Positions 11,021 to 19,847 of a stretch of DNA of 48,517 bases are shown here, piece after piece (position 1 is the stretch's first letter; every line of letters starts with the position of its first letter). A model generated the notes under the pieces. The model ran no database searches, had not been told where the DNA came from, and saw only the letters and a program-made list of their open reading frames with translations. Origin of the DNA: Bacillota bacterium (GTDB lineage Bacteria > Bacillota > Dethiobacteria > Dethiobacterales > Dethiobacteraceae); assembly GCA_012522075.1 (NCBI GenBank), contig JAAYLG010000109.1:1-48517 (forward strand), written 5' to 3'. Both the position numbers and the translations under genes were made by a program.

Positions 11021-11887
11021 ATGACATTGAATGTTGGTTTTATCGGTGTCGGCAATATCGGGATGGTAATGGCCAAAAGTATACTTAAAGCGGGTATCCC
11101 TTTGGCGGCGTACGACATTAATGAACAGGCGGTTGCCGAAATCGAAGCGGCCGGCGCCCGGGCCATGAAATCGTGCCGGGAAGTTATGGAGGCAAGTGAT
11201 GCTGTTATCACGATGGTACGGGATACTGCCCAAACCGAAAAAGTTGTTTTTGGGGAAAACGGTCTCTGGGAAGGTGCGAAGGAAGGCAGCATTATTATAC
11301 TTGCCAGCACCATTGGCCCGGACTATCCCAGGGAACTACACCGGAAAGGTAAAGAAAAAGGCATCAGGGTTTTGGACATGGGAGTAACAAAAAATATTTA
11401 CACTAATGAAATCGGGCAGTTTACACTGATGGTAAGCGGTGACGATGATGTAATAGACAAATGCTGGCCTGTTTTTACGGCCATGGGCAGGATAGTATTC
11501 AGAGCCGGTAAGATAGGCTACGCACAGGCATATAAGTTGATAAATAACATGATGGCTTTCAACCTGGGCAGTGTGCTGCATGAATGCCTCAATGTGGGGC
11601 TTAAAGCCGGCTTGGATATGAAGATGATGCTGGATATAATGCACGAAGGTACCGGTGCCAGCTGGATGGCAAACAGTATGCGCAATTTAATTGCCTCCGG
11701 CAGGAGGCGGCGTCTACCCAAAATGGATGATACGAGGAAACCGGCAAGGTTCATTAATAAAGATCAGGTTTTGGCCCTCGAACTGGCGGAAAAAGTGGGG
11801 GCAAAAGTTCCGTTGGCCAAACTGATTGAACAGCTTGACGAAGCTGAAACATATGACTCCTTTATCAGTTTTATGAGTGGAGAATAG
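11021..11887 (+). CDS. NAD(P)-dependent oxidoreductase, 3-hydroxyisobutyrate dehydrogenase family
   Basis: VGFIGVGNIGMVMAKSILKAG Rossmann motif and GYAQAYKLINNMM substrate/catalytic motif. Confidence 0.9.
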   Translation: MTLNVGFIGVGNIGMVMAKSILKAGIPLAAYDINEQAVAEIEAAGARAMKSCREVMEASDAVITMVRDTAQTEKVVFGENGLWEGAKEGSIIILASTIGPDYPRELHRKGKEKGIRVLDMGVTKNIYTNEIGQFTLMVSGDDDVIDKCWPVFTAMGRIVFRAGKIGYAQAYKLINNMMAFNLGSVLHECLNVGLKAGLDMKMMLDIMHEGTGASWMANSMRNLIASGRRRRLPKMDDTRKPARFINKDQVLALELAEKVGAKVPLAKLIEQLDEAETYDSFISFMSGE

Positions 11888-11896
11888 ACACAGTTA

Positions 11897-11931
11897 GTGC
11901 CACGGAACCGAGAAGCAGGGTTCCGCGGCAC
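11897..11931. terminator. Stable hairpin without U-tract after the dehydrogenase gene
   Basis: GTGCCaCGGAACC / GGTTCCGcGGCAC, 13-bp arms with one mismatch. Confidence 0.45.
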
Positions 11932-11956
11932 AGGCCTCCTACTGTTACTCTTGTCT

Positions 11957-12026
11957 ATTCATTTTCCCAATAGTAGCTAAATGAAAGTTTAATTGAATTC
12001 GGCAAAAATGTTTGATATTTATGAAT
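11957..12026 (+). promoter_or_regulatory. Predicted promoter/operator copy 2
   Basis: TTGAAT (11993) -17 bp- TATTTA (12016), preceded by ATTTTCCCAATAGTAGCTAAATGAAAGTTTAA; near-repeat of 10831-10903. Confidence 0.6.
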
Positions 12027-12230
12027 TGGTAGAGGGTATGCTTCAATGCAGGAAAAAGAATACGATGAAAAAATTTTTTTCAATATAAATTTCTGAAATA
12101 TGGGAATATTTAACCTATACCAAAATTATGGCCTTAAGTGGATTTATATTTAAGGAGGTGAAAGTCTGCCGGAAAAAGTTGTTGGTGGCTGTATGTACCG
12201 CGTGAACGGTTTAAAAAAGGAGGAGAAAAG

Positions 12231-13922
12231 ATGTGCGGAGGAAAAAGGTCGTTATTAAAAACTATTACAGTATCACTGGTAATTTTCCTAGCCGTGCTGC
12301 TCTTCCTGTCAGGTTGCAGCGGTAAAAATGAACCAGCGAACCAAAATGATAACAATAACAATAACAGCCAGATCGAAAATAATGCCAATAACGAAGAACC
12401 GGTTGCTGAAGGTCCCAGACGGGGGGGAGAGGTGCACTTTTACTATGATCAGGACCCGACTACGTTTTTAGTGGGGACATTGTCGCAGCCGGGCGGCGGC
12501 ATTGGGACGTATTTTTACCCCGGGTTAATCCGCCTGGATCTTGATCGCAATCCTCATCCTTATGCAGCAAAGAGTTGGGATATTTCTGAAGACTCGCGGA
12601 GAATTACATTTTACCTGCGGGATGATATCAAGTTTACGGATGGCGTGCCCCTTACTTCTGCCGATGTCAAATGGACTTTTGAAGAGATATCTGCCAAGCA
12701 CAGTGCGCAGATGACGCCAGTCTTTAAGCAGGTTACTTCAATAGAGACTCCTGACGATTATACAATAGTCCTGAACTTTGACCAGCCTTACGGGCCGCTG
12801 TTTGTTCTTTTATGTGCCCCCTATTTTGGGATTCATCCCAAGCATAGGCTTGAAGGGAAAGATCTACTGACAGACCCGGATGCCATGCTGGATGCAGTGG
12901 GCTGGGGGCCCTTTAAGCTGGCCGAATGGAAAAGTGGCGAGTATATCATCCTGGAAAGAAATGAGGACTACTTCGAGGAGGGGAAACCTTATCTGGACAG
13001 GATTATCTTCAGGATGATTACCGATACGACAGCCCAGCTATATGCTTTTGAAAACCAGGAAATAGACTCAATGGGGGCAACAGGAGCAGGCGGCATCTTG
13101 GAGCATATCCCCAGGCTGAGAGAACTTCCTTTTGTAGGTTATAGGGAAGGACTGGCAGATCCGGCAGGAATGGACCTTTTCTTTAATCTGAAGAATGATA
13201 AACTGTCGAAATTCGAAGTGCGGGCAGCCATCTGCCACGCCATTGACCGGGAATTGATCAATGATATGGTCTGGATGGGTCTGGGAATACCGGCGATCAG
13301 CCATTTTTCCCCGGAATTTGGTAATTTTTACAACCCCAAGGTAAACCTCCTGCAAAAGTATGAATATAACCCCGCGAAGGCGGAAGAAATGCTTGATGCC
13401 GCCGGTTATCCGAGGGGAAGCGACGGTACCAGATTTGAGTTGAGGCTGATTACCTCCAATACAAACCAGTATCTGAAAAATGCGCAGGAAGTTATTATAG
13501 ACCAGTTAAGGGCTGTAGGAATCAAAGTGATACCCGAGAATTTTGATGTTACAGGCATTACACAACGGGTATACGAAAGCCATGACTTTGACATGAAAGT
13601 ATGGCACTGCACCCAGGGTGCAGACCCGATTATTGGTGTAGAGCGCTGGTGTTTGAGCGACTATTACGGTTCCGGACGCTTTGCCCAGAACCCGACAGGT
13701 TATGCCAACGAGAGGGTAGATGAGCTGTTCTGGATAGCTAAAACCAGTGCAGTACCTGAAGAGCGGATTTCAGCTTTTCATGAGATTCAGGAGATCCTGG
13801 CAGAGGAAATGCCTTACCTGCCGCTCAATAACCCGCCCTCAATTGGATTGTATAATAACCGCATGCAGGATTACGGCTTTTATCTTAACCATTTCATGCA
13901 GGATGTTTGGGTAAAAGAATAA
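12231..13922 (+). CDS. ABC transporter substrate-binding lipoprotein, peptide/nickel family (SBP family 5)
   Basis: Lipobox LFLSGC; DIKFTDGVPLTSADVKWTFEE and AICHAIDRELIND motifs. Confidence 0.92.
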   Translation: MCGGKRSLLKTITVSLVIFLAVLLFLSGCSGKNEPANQNDNNNNNSQIENNANNEEPVAEGPRRGGEVHFYYDQDPTTFLVGTLSQPGGGIGTYFYPGLIRLDLDRNPHPYAAKSWDISEDSRRITFYLRDDIKFTDGVPLTSADVKWTFEEISAKHSAQMTPVFKQVTSIETPDDYTIVLNFDQPYGPLFVLLCAPYFGIHPKHRLEGKDLLTDPDAMLDAVGWGPFKLAEWKSGEYIILERNEDYFEEGKPYLDRIIFRMITDTTAQLYAFENQEIDSMGATGAGGILEHIPRLRELPFVGYREGLADPAGMDLFFNLKNDKLSKFEVRAAICHAIDRELINDMVWMGLGIPAISHFSPEFGNFYNPKVNLLQKYEYNPAKAEEMLDAAGYPRGSDGTRFELRLITSNTNQYLKNAQEVIIDQLRAVGIKVIPENFDVTGITQRVYESHDFDMKVWHCTQGADPIIGVERWCLSDYYGSGRFAQNPTGYANERVDELFWIAKTSAVPEERISAFHEIQEILAEEMPYLPLNNPPSIGLYNNRMQDYGFYLNHFMQDVWVKE

Positions 13923-13933
13923 GTTACAGGAGC

Positions 13934-14069
13934 GGCCCTGCTGCCATGGTATGAGTGTTTAAAAAAGCGGCGGCAGGTATCGAACGGCTGGAGGTGCTTC
14001 ATTGTCTTGCAGCAGGGTTCCAGAAAAGCGCCTCCAGCTGTTCCTGTTTTAGCAGGAAGATGCCGCCGC
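13934..14069 (+). ncRNA. Candidate structured 5' leader/cis-regulatory RNA of the UGSC gene
   Basis: Four complementary pairs in 136 nt: 13936-13944/14009-14017 (9 bp), 13967-13975/14061-14069 (9 bp), 13985-13999/14026-14040 (15 bp with two G-U), 14041-14046/14053-14058 (6 bp). Confidence 0.5.
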
Positions 14070-14107
14070 CTGGAAACAAAGGACTGCAAAGCAAGGAGGG
14101 ATTTCTC

Positions 14108-15724
14108 TTGACAATGGAACAAACTGTTTACACCTGTCTTGATCCAAGAGGCGAAATGCAGAATATTCAGCTTTCTCCCCTTAGTGCACGTGCGGATGAT
14201 CTGGACGGAAAAACTGTTTATTTTGTGGATAATGGTAAAAACGGCGCGGAACCGATTTTAAAAGCTCTCATGGAGCTGATGGAAAAAGACTACCCGGAGG
14301 CAAAACTGGTTTATTACCCTAAGACCACTGCTTATGCCCGTCCTGAGCCGCAAAGCTGGTGGCAGGAACTGGAAAAAAATGCCGCTGCAGCCGTGGTAGC
14401 TGTCGGTGATTGAGGTTCCTGCACCATGTGGATTATCCACATGCAGGTTGAAATGGAAAAAAGAGGTATACCCACTGTTTCCATTATTACTACACCTTTC
14501 ATCCGGGACGCTGCGGCCTCGGCGGAAATGTTCGGCTATCCCGGAGTGCGCAGAGTAGTGCTGCCTCATCCGGTCGGTGACATGGCCCGAAAAGATACCC
14601 CGGCCAAGGTTAAAGCGGCATACAGCGACATTGTCAGTGCTCTTACGGCACCTTTAACAGAAGAAGAAAGCAGGACAGGTGTACAGAAAGCCATCCCCCG
14701 GGAAAGAATTGCTTGCAGGGGTACTATTGATGAGGTTTATAAATTTTTCGTTGAGAAAGGAATGTGTGACGGTCTGCCCATTGTTCCGCCCACAGAGGAA
14801 AGAGTAAAAAGAATGCTTGAGGGAACAAGCCATCCTCCTGATGAAGTTTTGGGAAAAATGGATCCTGAACAGTGGGAAGTTACTGTGGAAAAGGTGGCAA
14901 TCAATGCCGTAATGTGCGGGTGCCTTCCCGAATATATGCCTGTCCTGTTGGCACTGGCCGAGGCGTTAATTGATCCCAGAACGGCGACGGGGACATACGT
15001 CCGCAGTACCAGTTCGTTTACTTTCTGGTCGGTGGTAAACGGCCCTATAGCAAGGGAAATCGGCATGAATGCCGGCAATAATGCCTTGGGCCCCGGCAAT
15101 AGAGCCAATGCCACGATCGGTCGGGCCATCAGGATGTTTTTAATCAATCTGGGCGGAACCGAGCCGGGAGTGAACGATATGTCGTCAATCGGTAATGCCC
15201 TGAAGTATGGTTTTGCTTTTGCGGAAAACGAAGCAGAAAGTCCCTGGGAACCGTATCATGTCACCCATGGATTTAAGCCGGAAGAGAGCACCGTCACCGT
15301 TTTTAAGTCGTGGGGTTTCCGTCCTACATCAATAGCCGCCGGCAGAGGGATGGGTTTGGCCAATATCGCCTGGAATGCCCAGGTTGTAGGCGGCGGGATG
15401 GTCATCCTCATGGACCCGCTGTTGGCAAAACAGCTGGCCGAACGGGGGATAACGAAAAAGAATATCCAAGAATTTCTTTACCAGAGCATGCATAGGAGCG
15501 TGCGAGTTTGGAAAAAGAACCCCAACTTTCGTCATGCTTTTATTGAATCAGGTGTCCCGGCATGGTACGAAGAACTCGCTGATGATGTTATAATTCCCAG
15601 GTTGGCAGGCCTGGACAGCGTGCAGACAATTGTTGTCGGCGGCCAGAACAATCCTTTTTACCAGCTGTATGATGCTACGCCGCCAGTAAAAGGAACAACC
15701 ATCTCTGTTGACAAATGGCGGTAA
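14108..15724 (+). CDS. UGSC family selenoprotein (in-frame UGA at 14411-14413 read as Sec), fused to a C-terminal CDGLPIVPPT domain
   Basis: ORFs 13955..14413 and 14426..15724 are in the same frame, joined by TGA GGT TCC TGC ACC ATG = U-G-S-C-T-M. AGGAGGG at 14094-14100 supports a TTG start at 14108 (ATG alternative at 14114). yedE/yedF present in the same window. Confidence 0.88.
14414..14447 (+). promoter_or_regulatory. Candidate bacterial SECIS hairpin
   Basis: Immediately after the UGA: CCTGC(14418-14422)-ACC bulge-ATGTGGA(14426-14432)-TTA-TCCACAT(14436-14442)-GCAGG(14443-14447); 12 bp with a short apical loop. Confidence 0.72.
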
Positions 15725-15752
15725 CAAAGCAGAGTTATCTCTGCTTTGTTAC
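15721..15752 (+). repeat. Perfect 14-bp inverted repeat between the UGSC gene and the first permease gene
   Basis: GTAACAAAGCAGAG-TTAT-CTCTGCTTTGTTAC; starts at the UGSC stop codon; no U-tract. Confidence 0.8.
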
Positions 15753-15798
15753 CCTTAGGAAACAGGCCGTGTCAGTTCGGGAGAATAGCGGAGGTGAA

Positions 15799-16782
15799 AT
15801 GATGAGGAAAACAAAGTCGATTCCTGTTTTTATCCTGCAGCGTATCCTACAGGTCATTCCCATAGTGCTAGGAACAATTTTCATTACTTTTCTTCTTTTG
15901 GAACTCAGCGGGGATCCCATCACCGCCCTTGGCGGCGATTTCGCCTTACCCGATGAAACTGTTGAGCACTTAACCAAAGCTTACGGCCTTGACAAGCCGG
16001 TCTATCAACGGTTTTTCATTTATATCTCAAAGGTGTTGCGGGGGGATTTCGGCTATTCCTATAAACAGGGACGCCCTGTCATGGAAATAATCATGGAACG
16101 CATGCCGGCTACCATTCTGTTGGGAGCGGCAACGTATGTTATCAGCACCATACTTGGCGTCGCCATGGGAGTAATAGCATCACTGAAGCCGCGGTCCTGG
16201 CTTGACAACCTGATTGTAACCCTGTCGGTGATGGGTTTTTCCACGCCTGCCTTTTGGTTTGCCCAGTTATCCATTTTTATTTTCTCCGTCCTGCTGGGCT
16301 GGCTTCCCGGATTTGGTATGCGTACCCTTGATTTGGTGGATACAAGCCTGCTAGCGGTTATTATTGACCGAGCCAAATATTTGATTTTACCGGCTTTTGT
16401 TCTTTCCATTAATGGTCTGGCCACCCTCGCCCGCGTTACCAGGGCCAACATGCTGGAAGTTATGCACAAAGATTTTATCACTACAGCAAGGGCAAAAGGC
16501 TGTTCCGAATTTGCCGTGCTGATTCGCCATAAATTACGCAATATTATGCTGGTTCTTATCACCTTGATAGGGCTGCGGGCAGGGATGCTGGTGTCCGGTT
16601 CTGTCCTGATAGAAACTGTGTTTTCCTGGCCGGGTGTGGGCAGGCTGATGTACAATGCCATCAGCAGCCGTGATTTCCCCGTTGTGCTGGGCGGGTTTTT
16701 AATCACGGCCGGGATGACAATTTTTATCAATTTGACAACAGACATCTTGTATACAATTTTAGATCCACGTGTCAGGTACTAG
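15799..16782 (+). CDS. ABC transporter permease, DppB/OppB-like
   Basis: VIPIVLGTIFITFLLLELSGDP N-terminus and ARAKGCSEFAVLIRHKLRN EAA loop. Start trimmed to MMRKTK. Confidence 0.9.
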   Translation: MMRKTKSIPVFILQRILQVIPIVLGTIFITFLLLELSGDPITALGGDFALPDETVEHLTKAYGLDKPVYQRFFIYISKVLRGDFGYSYKQGRPVMEIIMERMPATILLGAATYVISTILGVAMGVIASLKPRSWLDNLIVTLSVMGFSTPAFWFAQLSIFIFSVLLGWLPGFGMRTLDLVDTSLLAVIIDRAKYLILPAFVLSINGLATLARVTRANMLEVMHKDFITTARAKGCSEFAVLIRHKLRNIMLVLITLIGLRAGMLVSGSVLIETVFSWPGVGRLMYNAISSRDFPVVLGGFLITAGMTIFINLTTDILYTILDPRVRY

Positions 16783-16828
16783 ACTGCTTCCGGCGACACG
16801 CAACATTAACTACGTAGGGGGCGTAAGC

Positions 16829-17740
16829 ATGGAAATGCAGACAAGCAGGCAAGTACTGCATAAGAAAATGGAAATGGGTTTTTCCGTTCGTCTGCATAAA
16901 TTTTTCGTATCCGCAGTGGATTTCTGGAGACGTTACAAAAAAACAAAGACTGCCGTCTTTGGCTTGGTAATAATTCTGATTTTTGCTTTTATTGCCATTA
17001 ACGCTTCATGGCTGGCACCTTACGATCCTTACCTAATAACAAGGGAAAGGTTTGCTCCGCCATCTGCCAAACATTGGCTGGGAACCGACGACATGGGCAG
17101 GGATATTTTAAGCAGAATTATTTACGGCTCAAGAGTTTCTCTGAGTATTGGTTTTATTATAGCAGCCCTATCCATGACCATTGGTATTGTTATCGGTGCT
17201 GTTTCCGGTTACTTCGGGGGAAAAGTTGATACCCTGCTGCAGCGGCTGGTGGAAATGGTCCAGATGTTGCCCAGCCTGGTACTTATAATTGTTGTGTTGC
17301 TATTACTGGGGGGCGGCATAGACAGGATTGTTATTATCATGGGGCTTTTAGGCTGGACGGGAACAGCCCGTGTTGTCAGGGCTGAATTTCTTTCCCACCG
17401 GGAGCGGGAATATGTAGAGGCAGGCAAGGCATTAGGTTTCAGCAAGTTTCATATTATTTTCAGCGAGATTTTACCTGCCGTGATTCCGACAGTACTAGTC
17501 ATTATGGCAATGAATATTTCCGGGGCGATTTTAATGGAAGCCGGTTTAAGTTTTTTAGGTCTGGGCGATCTCAGTGTTATTACCTGGGGGCAAATGCTGC
17601 AAAACGCCCAGAGGTGGCTTTCCCAGGCATGGTGGATTTCATTCTTCCCGGGACTGGCAATTTTCCTCACCGTGCTCAGCTTTAACCTGATAGGAGACGG
17701 TATTAACGACGCAATCAATCCTTACCTGAAAGAGAGATAA
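16829..17740 (+). CDS. ABC transporter permease, DppC/OppC-like
   Basis: HWLGTDDMGRDILSRIIYGSRVSL and EYVEAGKALGFSKFHIIFSEILP motifs. Confidence 0.9.
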   Translation: MEMQTSRQVLHKKMEMGFSVRLHKFFVSAVDFWRRYKKTKTAVFGLVIILIFAFIAINASWLAPYDPYLITRERFAPPSAKHWLGTDDMGRDILSRIIYGSRVSLSIGFIIAALSMTIGIVIGAVSGYFGGKVDTLLQRLVEMVQMLPSLVLIIVVLLLLGGGIDRIVIIMGLLGWTGTARVVRAEFLSHREREYVEAGKALGFSKFHIIFSEILPAVIPTVLVIMAMNISGAILMEAGLSFLGLGDLSVITWGQMLQNAQRWLSQAWWISFFPGLAIFLTVLSFNLIGDGINDAINPYLKER

Positions 17741-17776
17741 AAGCAAAAAGTAAAAACTTACCCTGGGAGTGGTTGG

Positions 17777-18787
17777 TTGATGAATGATTTGCTCTTAAAT
17801 ATCAAAGGGCTGAAAACTTACTTTAATTTAACGCGGGGAGTTCTCCGAGCCGTGGATGGCGTTGACTTAAAAGTGGGGGCCGGTGAAATTGTGGGCCTGG
17901 TGGGTGAATCGGGATGTGGGAAATCAGTTTTGGCCCGCTCTGTCCTCCGCCTGTTGCAGCATCCCGGGTATATTGCAGCAGGTGAAATAATCTACGAAGG
18001 AACAGACCTCTCTAAATTGCCTGATGAAAAGATGCGCGAACACCGGGGGAAAAAAATTGCCATGGTGTTCCAAGATCCCCTTGGCTATTTAAACCCTGTT
18101 ATGAAAGTAGGCAGTCAGATTGAAGAAGCATTGCGAATACACCGGCCAAATGAAGATCCCGGTAAAATTATCCCTTTACTCCTGGAATCTGTTGGTTTCC
18201 CGCGGTCTGCCCGTATCTGGGACAGATATCCCCATGAGCTTTCAGGCGGAATGTTGCAAAGGGTGATCATTGCCCTTGCCATCTCCTGCGACCCGAGACT
18301 GCTAATTGCCGATGAGCCTACAACCGCCCTTGATGTGACCATTCAGGCACAGGTATTAAGGTTGCTGAAAAGGCTTTGTAAAGAACGGGAAATGGCCATG
18401 TTGCTGATTACCCACAATCTGGGCATTGTTGCTGATACCTGCGACCGCATTTATGTGATGTATTGCGGAAGGATTGTTGAAACTGCCGATGTCTTTTCCC
18501 TTTTTGAAAAACCTTACCATCCTTATACCAGAGGCCTGCTGGAAGCCACTTTAAGTATTGATGAATTCCGCGAAAACTTGACAACCATAGAGGGCACCGT
18601 TCCTGACCCTATTAACCTGCCGCCCGGGTGCAGGTTCGCACCGCGCTGCTCTGCCGCCCGTTTAGTTTGTACGCAAGCGGATCCGCCTTGTCTCACTATT
18701 GATGCCTTAAAAGAACATGTGGCTTACTGCTGGATCGGCACGGCCGAATATGAAAAAAGTGCTGCTCCGTTGACCACTGCCATTTGA
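17777..18787 (+). CDS. ABC transporter ATP-binding protein, DppD/OppD-like
   Basis: Walker A GESGCGKS, signature LSGGMLQR, Walker [14 protein letters not shown]-terminal oligo/dipeptide ATPase motif CRFAPRC. Confidence 0.93.
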
Positions 18788-18845
18788 GGATACGGCTTCT
18801 TTAGGGCAGACAATGCCTTATCTATCTCTGGAAGGGGTGGCCCAT

Positions 18846-19847
18846 ATGTCCGAAGCAAATGGGACAATTATGAAGGCTGAAAATGTTGTCAAACTGTTTC
18901 CGGTGAAAAAATCATCTCTACTTGCTGCATTAACCAGAAAACCGCCAGACTATGTTCACGCCGTTGACGGCGTTTCACTTGATGTCCAAGTCGGTGATAC
19001 AATTGCCATTGTGGGGGAAAGCGGTTCAGGCAAAACAACCCTGGCCCGCGTAATGCTTAATTTGATAGAACCGACGTCGGGAAAGGTAATCTGGCGGGGG
19101 AAAGATGTGTCCACCTTGGATAAAAATGAGCTCTTTCAGTTCCGTAAAGATGTTCAGATTATCTTTCAGAACCCGGGAGGAGCTTTAAACCCCCGTAAAA
19201 GTATTTTTAGGATTCTCAGTGAACCGCTAAAACTGCATTTTAATATTAAATCCGGGAGCGAACTGGTTGACAGGGCTTCCGAAGCGCTGCTGGCGGTAGG
19301 CCTCAACCCGGCCATACACCTGGACCGCCATCCTCACGAATTTAGCGGAGGACAGCGCCAACGTATCTGTATTGCCAGGGCTCTTTCCTTGGGAGCAAAG
19401 ATTATTTTTGCCGATGAACCTGTCTCGTCACTGGATGTTTCCATTCAGGCACAAATCCTGATTTTAATGAAAAAGCTGAAAGAAGAATTTGGCCTCACCT
19501 ACATTTTTGTTACCCACGACCTTGCTTTAACACGCTCCTTTGCTTCCCGGGTATACGTTATGTATCTCGGCGAGATAGTTGAGAGCGGTCCTGTTGAAGA
19601 TATTTTTATGGAACCCCTCCATCCTTACACCAAATTGCTTTTGGCATCGACCCCTGTCCCCAATCCCAAACGAGCTCGCAGCAGAGAAACAATAATTCCT
19701 GTGGGAGAAATTCCTTCACCGATCAACCCGCCGCCTGGTTGTCGCTTTCATACGCGCTGTGCCCTGGCAAAGGCAATATGTAAAACCGCAAAACCGGTTG
19801 TTAAAACCGTAGGTAACCGCTCTTTTGCATGTCACCTGGTCAATTGA
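18846..19847 (+). CDS. ABC transporter ATP-binding protein, DppF/OppF-like
   Basis: Walker A GESGSGKTT, signature FSGGQRQR, Walker B IIFADEPVSSLD, CRFHTRC. Confidence 0.93.
   Translation: MSEANGTIMKAENVVKLFPVKKSSLLAALTRKPPDYVHAVDGVSLDVQVGDTIAIVGESGSGKTTLARVMLNLIEPTSGKVIWRGKDVSTLDKNELFQFRKDVQIIFQNPGGALNPRKSIFRILSEPLKLHFNIKSGSELVDRASEALLAVGLNPAIHLDRHPHEFSGGQRQRICIARALSLGAKIIFADEPVSSLDVSIQAQILILMKKLKEEFGLTYIFVTHDLALTRSFASRVYVMYLGEIVESGPVEDIFMEPLHPYTKLLLASTPVPNPKRARSRETIIPVGEIPSPINPPPGCRFHTRCALAKAICKTAKPVVKTVGNRSFACHLVN

Follow-up and report, generated by a model that had tools for sequence, protein, structure and literature searches.

A UGSC-type selenoprotein gene within an ABC transporter operon

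Is the hairpin behind the in-frame UGA of a UGSC-type gene in this Bacillota genome a SECIS element, and can SelB still read it when its loop lacks the guanine that relatives keep? We addressed this by sequence comparison, starting from a window that comprises the whole analysed stretch of 48,517 nucleotides (contig JAAYLG010000109.1). The features concerned are the following.

14114-15724, + strand: UGSC-family selenoprotein gene, UGA read as U; 536 aa, residue 100 being Sec
14411-14413, + strand: Sec codon (UGA, in frame) of the U-G-S-C motif; L007, L013, L049 and other Sec homologues also have TGA here
14425-14443, + strand: conserved hairpin, predicted SECIS; 8-bp stem 14425-14432/14436-14443 with covariation
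14433-14435, + strand: apical triloop U-U-A; U at 14433 where 41/41 other Sec homologues have a loop G
14418-14422, + strand: 5' arm of a lower stem in the earlier reading, pairing with 14443-14447; not conserved in relatives
14443-14447, + strand: 3' arm of that lower stem in the earlier reading; the conserved structure pairs 14443 with 14425 instead

The gene has an alternative start at an in-frame TTG (14108). Its product matched the Pfam family UGSC (PF24696) with 138.9 bits (E 2.4e-40, cut-off 25) and NCBIfam NF041046 with 121.6 bits, slightly below the cut-off of 125. Membership of the UGSC family is defined by a U/C-G-S-C motif together with a match to the PF24696 profile, and the protein has both. 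The U-x-x-C region also gave weak matches to glycine reductase selenoprotein B; a search for GRDB (PF07355) in the same genome found no match, but the controls were silent too, hence this search was uninformative. A marine metagenome survey counted UGSC-containing selenoproteins among its major families (PMC2398784).

Upstream of the gene lies an ABC solute-binding protein gene (12231-13922), and downstream are oligopeptide-type permease and ATPase genes (15715-19847). Over 11021-19847, the UGSC gene is located inside an oligopeptide-type ABC operon with a solute-binding protein, two permeases and two ATPases, and a 3-hydroxyisobutyrate-dehydrogenase-like gene adjoins this operon. The order of solute-binding protein, UGSC gene and permeases is shared with the sister genome (L048), in which the gene order around the UGSC gene is identical up to the limit of its contig.

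An in-frame hairpin directly behind the UGA

The codons following UGA 14411-14413 are GGT TCC TGC ACC ATG TGG ATT ATC CAC ATG CAG. The first-pass annotation had placed a candidate SECIS, a bulged 12-bp hairpin, here, and its letters, coordinates and in-frame position were exactly reproduced when the sequence was re-read and translated: CCTGC (14418-14422), bulge ACC (14423-14425), ATGTGGA (14426-14432), loop TTA (14433-14435), TCCACAT (14436-14442) and GCAGG (14443-14447). The whole bulged hairpin lies within the coding frame, which reads ...VAVGD-U-GSCTMWIIHMQV... The proposed structure also formed in folding prediction, with -15.7 kcal/mol for the bulged hairpin (14418-14447); the upper hairpin (8 bp, 3-nt loop) by itself reached -9.4 kcal/mol.

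Like the E. coli fdhF element and the bSECISearch model of bacterial SECIS, the window element is an in-frame hairpin directly 3' of the Sec UGA. The distance from UGA to loop is 19 nt (14414-14432), within the 16-37 nt published for the spacing between UGA and apical loop in bacteria (PMC13188914), and the positional fit to bacterial SECIS proposed at first pass thus holds. We further applied limits of 3-9 nt for the loop, 4-16 bp for the upper stem and an MFE of -7.5 kcal/mol or lower; the window hairpin, with its triloop, 8-bp upper stem and stability beyond -7.5 kcal/mol, falls within all three. No family for the hairpin element was found in Rfam.

Dinucleotide-shuffle folding of a 56-nt context gave a z-score of only -1.3, an uninformative measure that was superseded by synonymous recoding and covariation. 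For the 34-nt element itself, z was -4.3, and 0/200 dinucleotide shuffles folded as well. When the same peptide was recoded synonymously with local codon usage, 12 of 1000 recodings folded as well, and 161 of 5000 contained an equally good continuous stem. Judged from the single sequence, the hairpin is only moderately unusual, and because these statistics are only moderate, the case for it is carried by its relatives.

Covariation delimits the element to the upper stem and triloop

Homologues were collected from genomes of the taxonomic family, the class and the GTDB species. The site of the Sec codon was occupied by UGA in 42 loci, by a Cys codon in 22 and by neither in seven. A phylum-wide genome sample yielded no closer orthologue, and a search of viral contigs yielded no relative.

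Sixteen homologues sharing the stem register could be aligned without gaps and formed the covariation set. In this set, 89.8% of cells in the upper 8-bp stem were paired, and double-sided changes were found at 6 of the 8 stem pairs. The covariation score was 0.452, compared with a shuffle mean of 0.147 (0.452 was reached in 0/500 shuffles) and with at most 0.136 in slid-register controls. Covariation across UGSC homologues, which the first-pass annotation had named as a check, is therefore present. These comparisons show that the hairpin is genuine and has been kept in relatives by compensatory base changes.

The lower stem (14418-14422/14443-14447) did not share this pattern: only 38.8% of its cells were paired, not above the shuffled and slid controls, and we rejected it as part of the element. 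Of the bulged 12-bp candidate SECIS described at first pass, the upper 8-bp stem stood and the lower CCTGC/GCAGG pairing did not. The conserved element, as delimited by the alignment, is 14425-14443 (upper stem plus triloop), because the lower stem pairs no better than controls.

In L012 (G016:C3), stem bases co-changed with the protein, MWSIH becoming MSSIL (W to S and H to L). Around Sec, this locus reads MSSILIQ where MWSIHIQ is found otherwise, the protein being altered along with the stem bases. Here the RNA structure seems to drive the protein sequence. Together with this protein change, the covariation provides a clear comparative demonstration of a SECIS in a poorly studied selenoprotein family.

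The hairpin accompanies Sec codons but not Cys codons

For comparison of Sec and Cys homologues, we counted only Watson-Crick pairs and scored stems of 4 bp or more that enclose a G-U loop. Such a stem and loop were found in 35 of 39 distinct Sec homologues and in 2 of 22 Cys homologues (Fisher p = 3e-10, which is indicative, since the sequences are related). Three of the four Sec exceptions have the G-U loop with a wobble-paired stem; the fourth is the window copy. As judged from these homologues, an orthologous, covarying hairpin lies behind the UGA of every Sec-encoding homologue and is missing behind the Cys codons of Cys homologues. Compensatory change in Sec homologues and absence of the structure in Cys homologues were thus both found. 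Cys orthologues retaining the hairpin, or a lack of covariation, had been named at first pass as signs against a SECIS; neither was seen.

The window copy lacks the conserved loop guanine

The loop of a bacterial SECIS is usually G-U or G-G, and E. coli SelB recognises a loop guanine whose counterpart in the window is 14433. Under the bacterial SECIS model, at least one of the first two loop positions has to be G (PMC13188914), and according to a review UGA read-through is abolished when U17 or G23 is altered in the E. coli element (PMC8659212). The window loop, UUA, has no G in the first two positions, unlike that model. The sole suboptimal fold with a G at the start of the loop (GAUUAUC) costs 4.3 kcal/mol. 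G-U is part of the loop in each of the 41 other Sec homologues, as GUA, GUG, GUU, GUC, UGUAU, GGUC, AGUU or UGUG. This loop G is not tied to one codon phase: it occupies each of the three, within Ser, Gly, Val, Cys and Gln codons, and this spread places the constraint at the level of RNA. The first-pass remark that the loop differs from that of fdhF was true and can be sharpened: what is missing is the consensus G, and among the related copies only the window copy lacks it, which is the new observation here. Because of the missing G, SelB recognition of the window copy is in real doubt.

The same G-U is seen elsewhere in the genome and family. The paralogues of the UGSC gene on contigs C155 and C46 of the same genome have SECIS hairpins with a G-U loop, and G-U is likewise present in every one of the selD SECIS hairpins compared within the family (20 loci, 19 genomes, the own genome included).

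Compared with the E. coli fdhF SECIS, the window stem has no bulged U, nor do the stems of its relatives. Compared with the other UGSC hairpins (PF24696/NF041046), the window copy agrees in gene family, stem register and the orthologous operon of the sister, but has U-U for G-U and is the only copy with a lower stem. The selD SECIS of the own genome and family (GUN triloop) share its stem length and triloop size and have the same SelB, but keep G-U and, with a loop offset of 36 versus 22, are 14 nt more distant from the UGA. We class the window hairpin as derived from a SECIS but variant in its loop, because its position, spacing, size, stability and covariation are those of a bacterial SECIS while its loop departs from the loop-G rule.

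Selenocysteine machinery

In the own genome, selA, selB (385 bits) and selD are adjacent on contig C75, and selD has an in-frame UGA with a GUA-loop hairpin. Throughout the taxonomic family selD is a Sec gene (L100:8017, L105-L125); its G-U hairpin has an offset of 36 to the UGA in 19 of the 20 loci, and many of these loci have a second hairpin nearer the UGA.

SelB is 88-91% identical within the genus, and its C-terminal RNA-binding region is conserved. Comparison with relatives revealed no compensating change in SelB; in the own protein, V68 and Y528 are the sole differences at otherwise invariant residues, and both lie outside the displayed C-terminal region.

A search for selC (RF01852) in the own assembly gave no hit over the cut-off, only Ser- and Arg-type tRNAs, and selC is present in both same-genus genomes, G002 and G003. 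When the DNA flanking selC in G002 was compared with the own genome, only one flank matched, at the end of contig C211, where the syntenic flank starts 128 bases from the contig end and the tRNA side is missing. The own assembly stops near the position that selC has in G002 (G000:C211:1-130). The absence of selC is probably an assembly gap, because C211 breaks off close to where synteny would put the gene.

Selection downstream of the UGA

The frame is intact over 436 codons after the UGA. Of the polarised changes in this part, 9 non-synonymous and 34 synonymous ones fall on the window lineage and 9 and 38, respectively, on that of the sister. Pairwise dN/dS was 0.053/0.621 after the UGA versus 0.068/0.615 before it. 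A functional element, a mutation of very recent date and a base error would each agree equally with this pattern.

Interpretation of the variant loop

Comparison has established the UGA, the stem, its covariation, its restriction to Sec copies, the selA, selB and selD genes and the conserved frame. As for the loop, we prefer the reading, with a probability of roughly one half, that the window hairpin is the SECIS of the UGSC gene, derived from one with a G-U loop, and that SelB still binds it. In the ancestor, SelB bound to the G-U loop would have brought Sec-tRNA to the UGA; in the window lineage, the loop G (14433) would have changed to U, and Sec would still be inserted, perhaps less efficiently. 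The upper 8-bp stem would be the working part, and the lower pairing, which is 5-10 nt behind the UGA and only in the window copy, should be melted by the decoding ribosome. Weighing against this reading are the missing loop G, the energy cost of the fold that would restore one, the lack of a compensating change in SelB and the failure to find selC in the assembly. More tentatively, the U-U loop may be a natural, working variant that is read by an unchanged SelB. If it works, the loop guanine would be dispensable outside E. coli, perhaps through compensation by a perfect stem of greater length or by the additional lower pairing, and such genes would escape search models in which a loop G is mandatory.

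The variant-loop hairpin would be either such a tolerated natural variant, an assembly error or a recent loss. The U at 14433 could have arisen from misassembly or mixing of strains, the true element having an ordinary G-U loop. We consider this unlikely, even though the assembly is a draft of 221 contigs, a single base separates the window loop from the pattern of the family, G-U occurs in every relative and in every other SECIS examined in the own genome, and selection is not relaxed. The frame is intact, no direct sign of an error was seen, and a second, adjacent loop base is likewise not that of the sister (six loop-region bases read AGTGTC in the sister and ATTATC in the window), so the region has truly diverged.

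Rather unlikely, in our estimate, is a recent loss, in which SelB recognition would be abolished and translation would stop at the UGA while other selenoproteins are still made; the gene would then be at an early stage of breakdown, the first step in the loss of a selenoprotein gene. The one loop base that is invariant has gone, a change of G23 abolishes read-through in E. coli (PMC8659212), and SelB offers no compensating change. On the other hand, the window lineage has no non-synonymous excess after the UGA, there is no frame break in 436 codons, and the stem itself is perfect. The window copy represents a natural single-base test of the one loop base thought essential for SelB recognition.

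That the UGA simply terminates translation and the hairpin is a chance product of coding, for example with a second gene starting from the ATG at 14426, is very improbable and, for the family, is refuted by the covariation: the 161/5000 recodings with an equally good stem, that ATG and the G064 gene split in two frames (at residue 183/184, away from the UGA) could be cited for it, but the Sec/Cys split, the conservation of the UGA in place and the protein similarity unbroken across the UGA all speak against it. A separate gene starting at ATG 14426 was rejected, as the homologous frame runs through the UGA.

Other gene arrangements in the family

In L090/L098 (G064:C364), the split leaves the UGSC domain with the UGA in one gene and the C-terminal domain in a separate one. 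In L023 (G000:C46), the matched frame of the own UGSC paralogue contains a TAG besides the Sec UGA, which may reflect a base error or a gene that is broken. L008 and L029 (G011, G003) are tandem pairs of UDGC-type Sec paralogues, each with a GUN-loop hairpin of its own one codon nearer the UGA.
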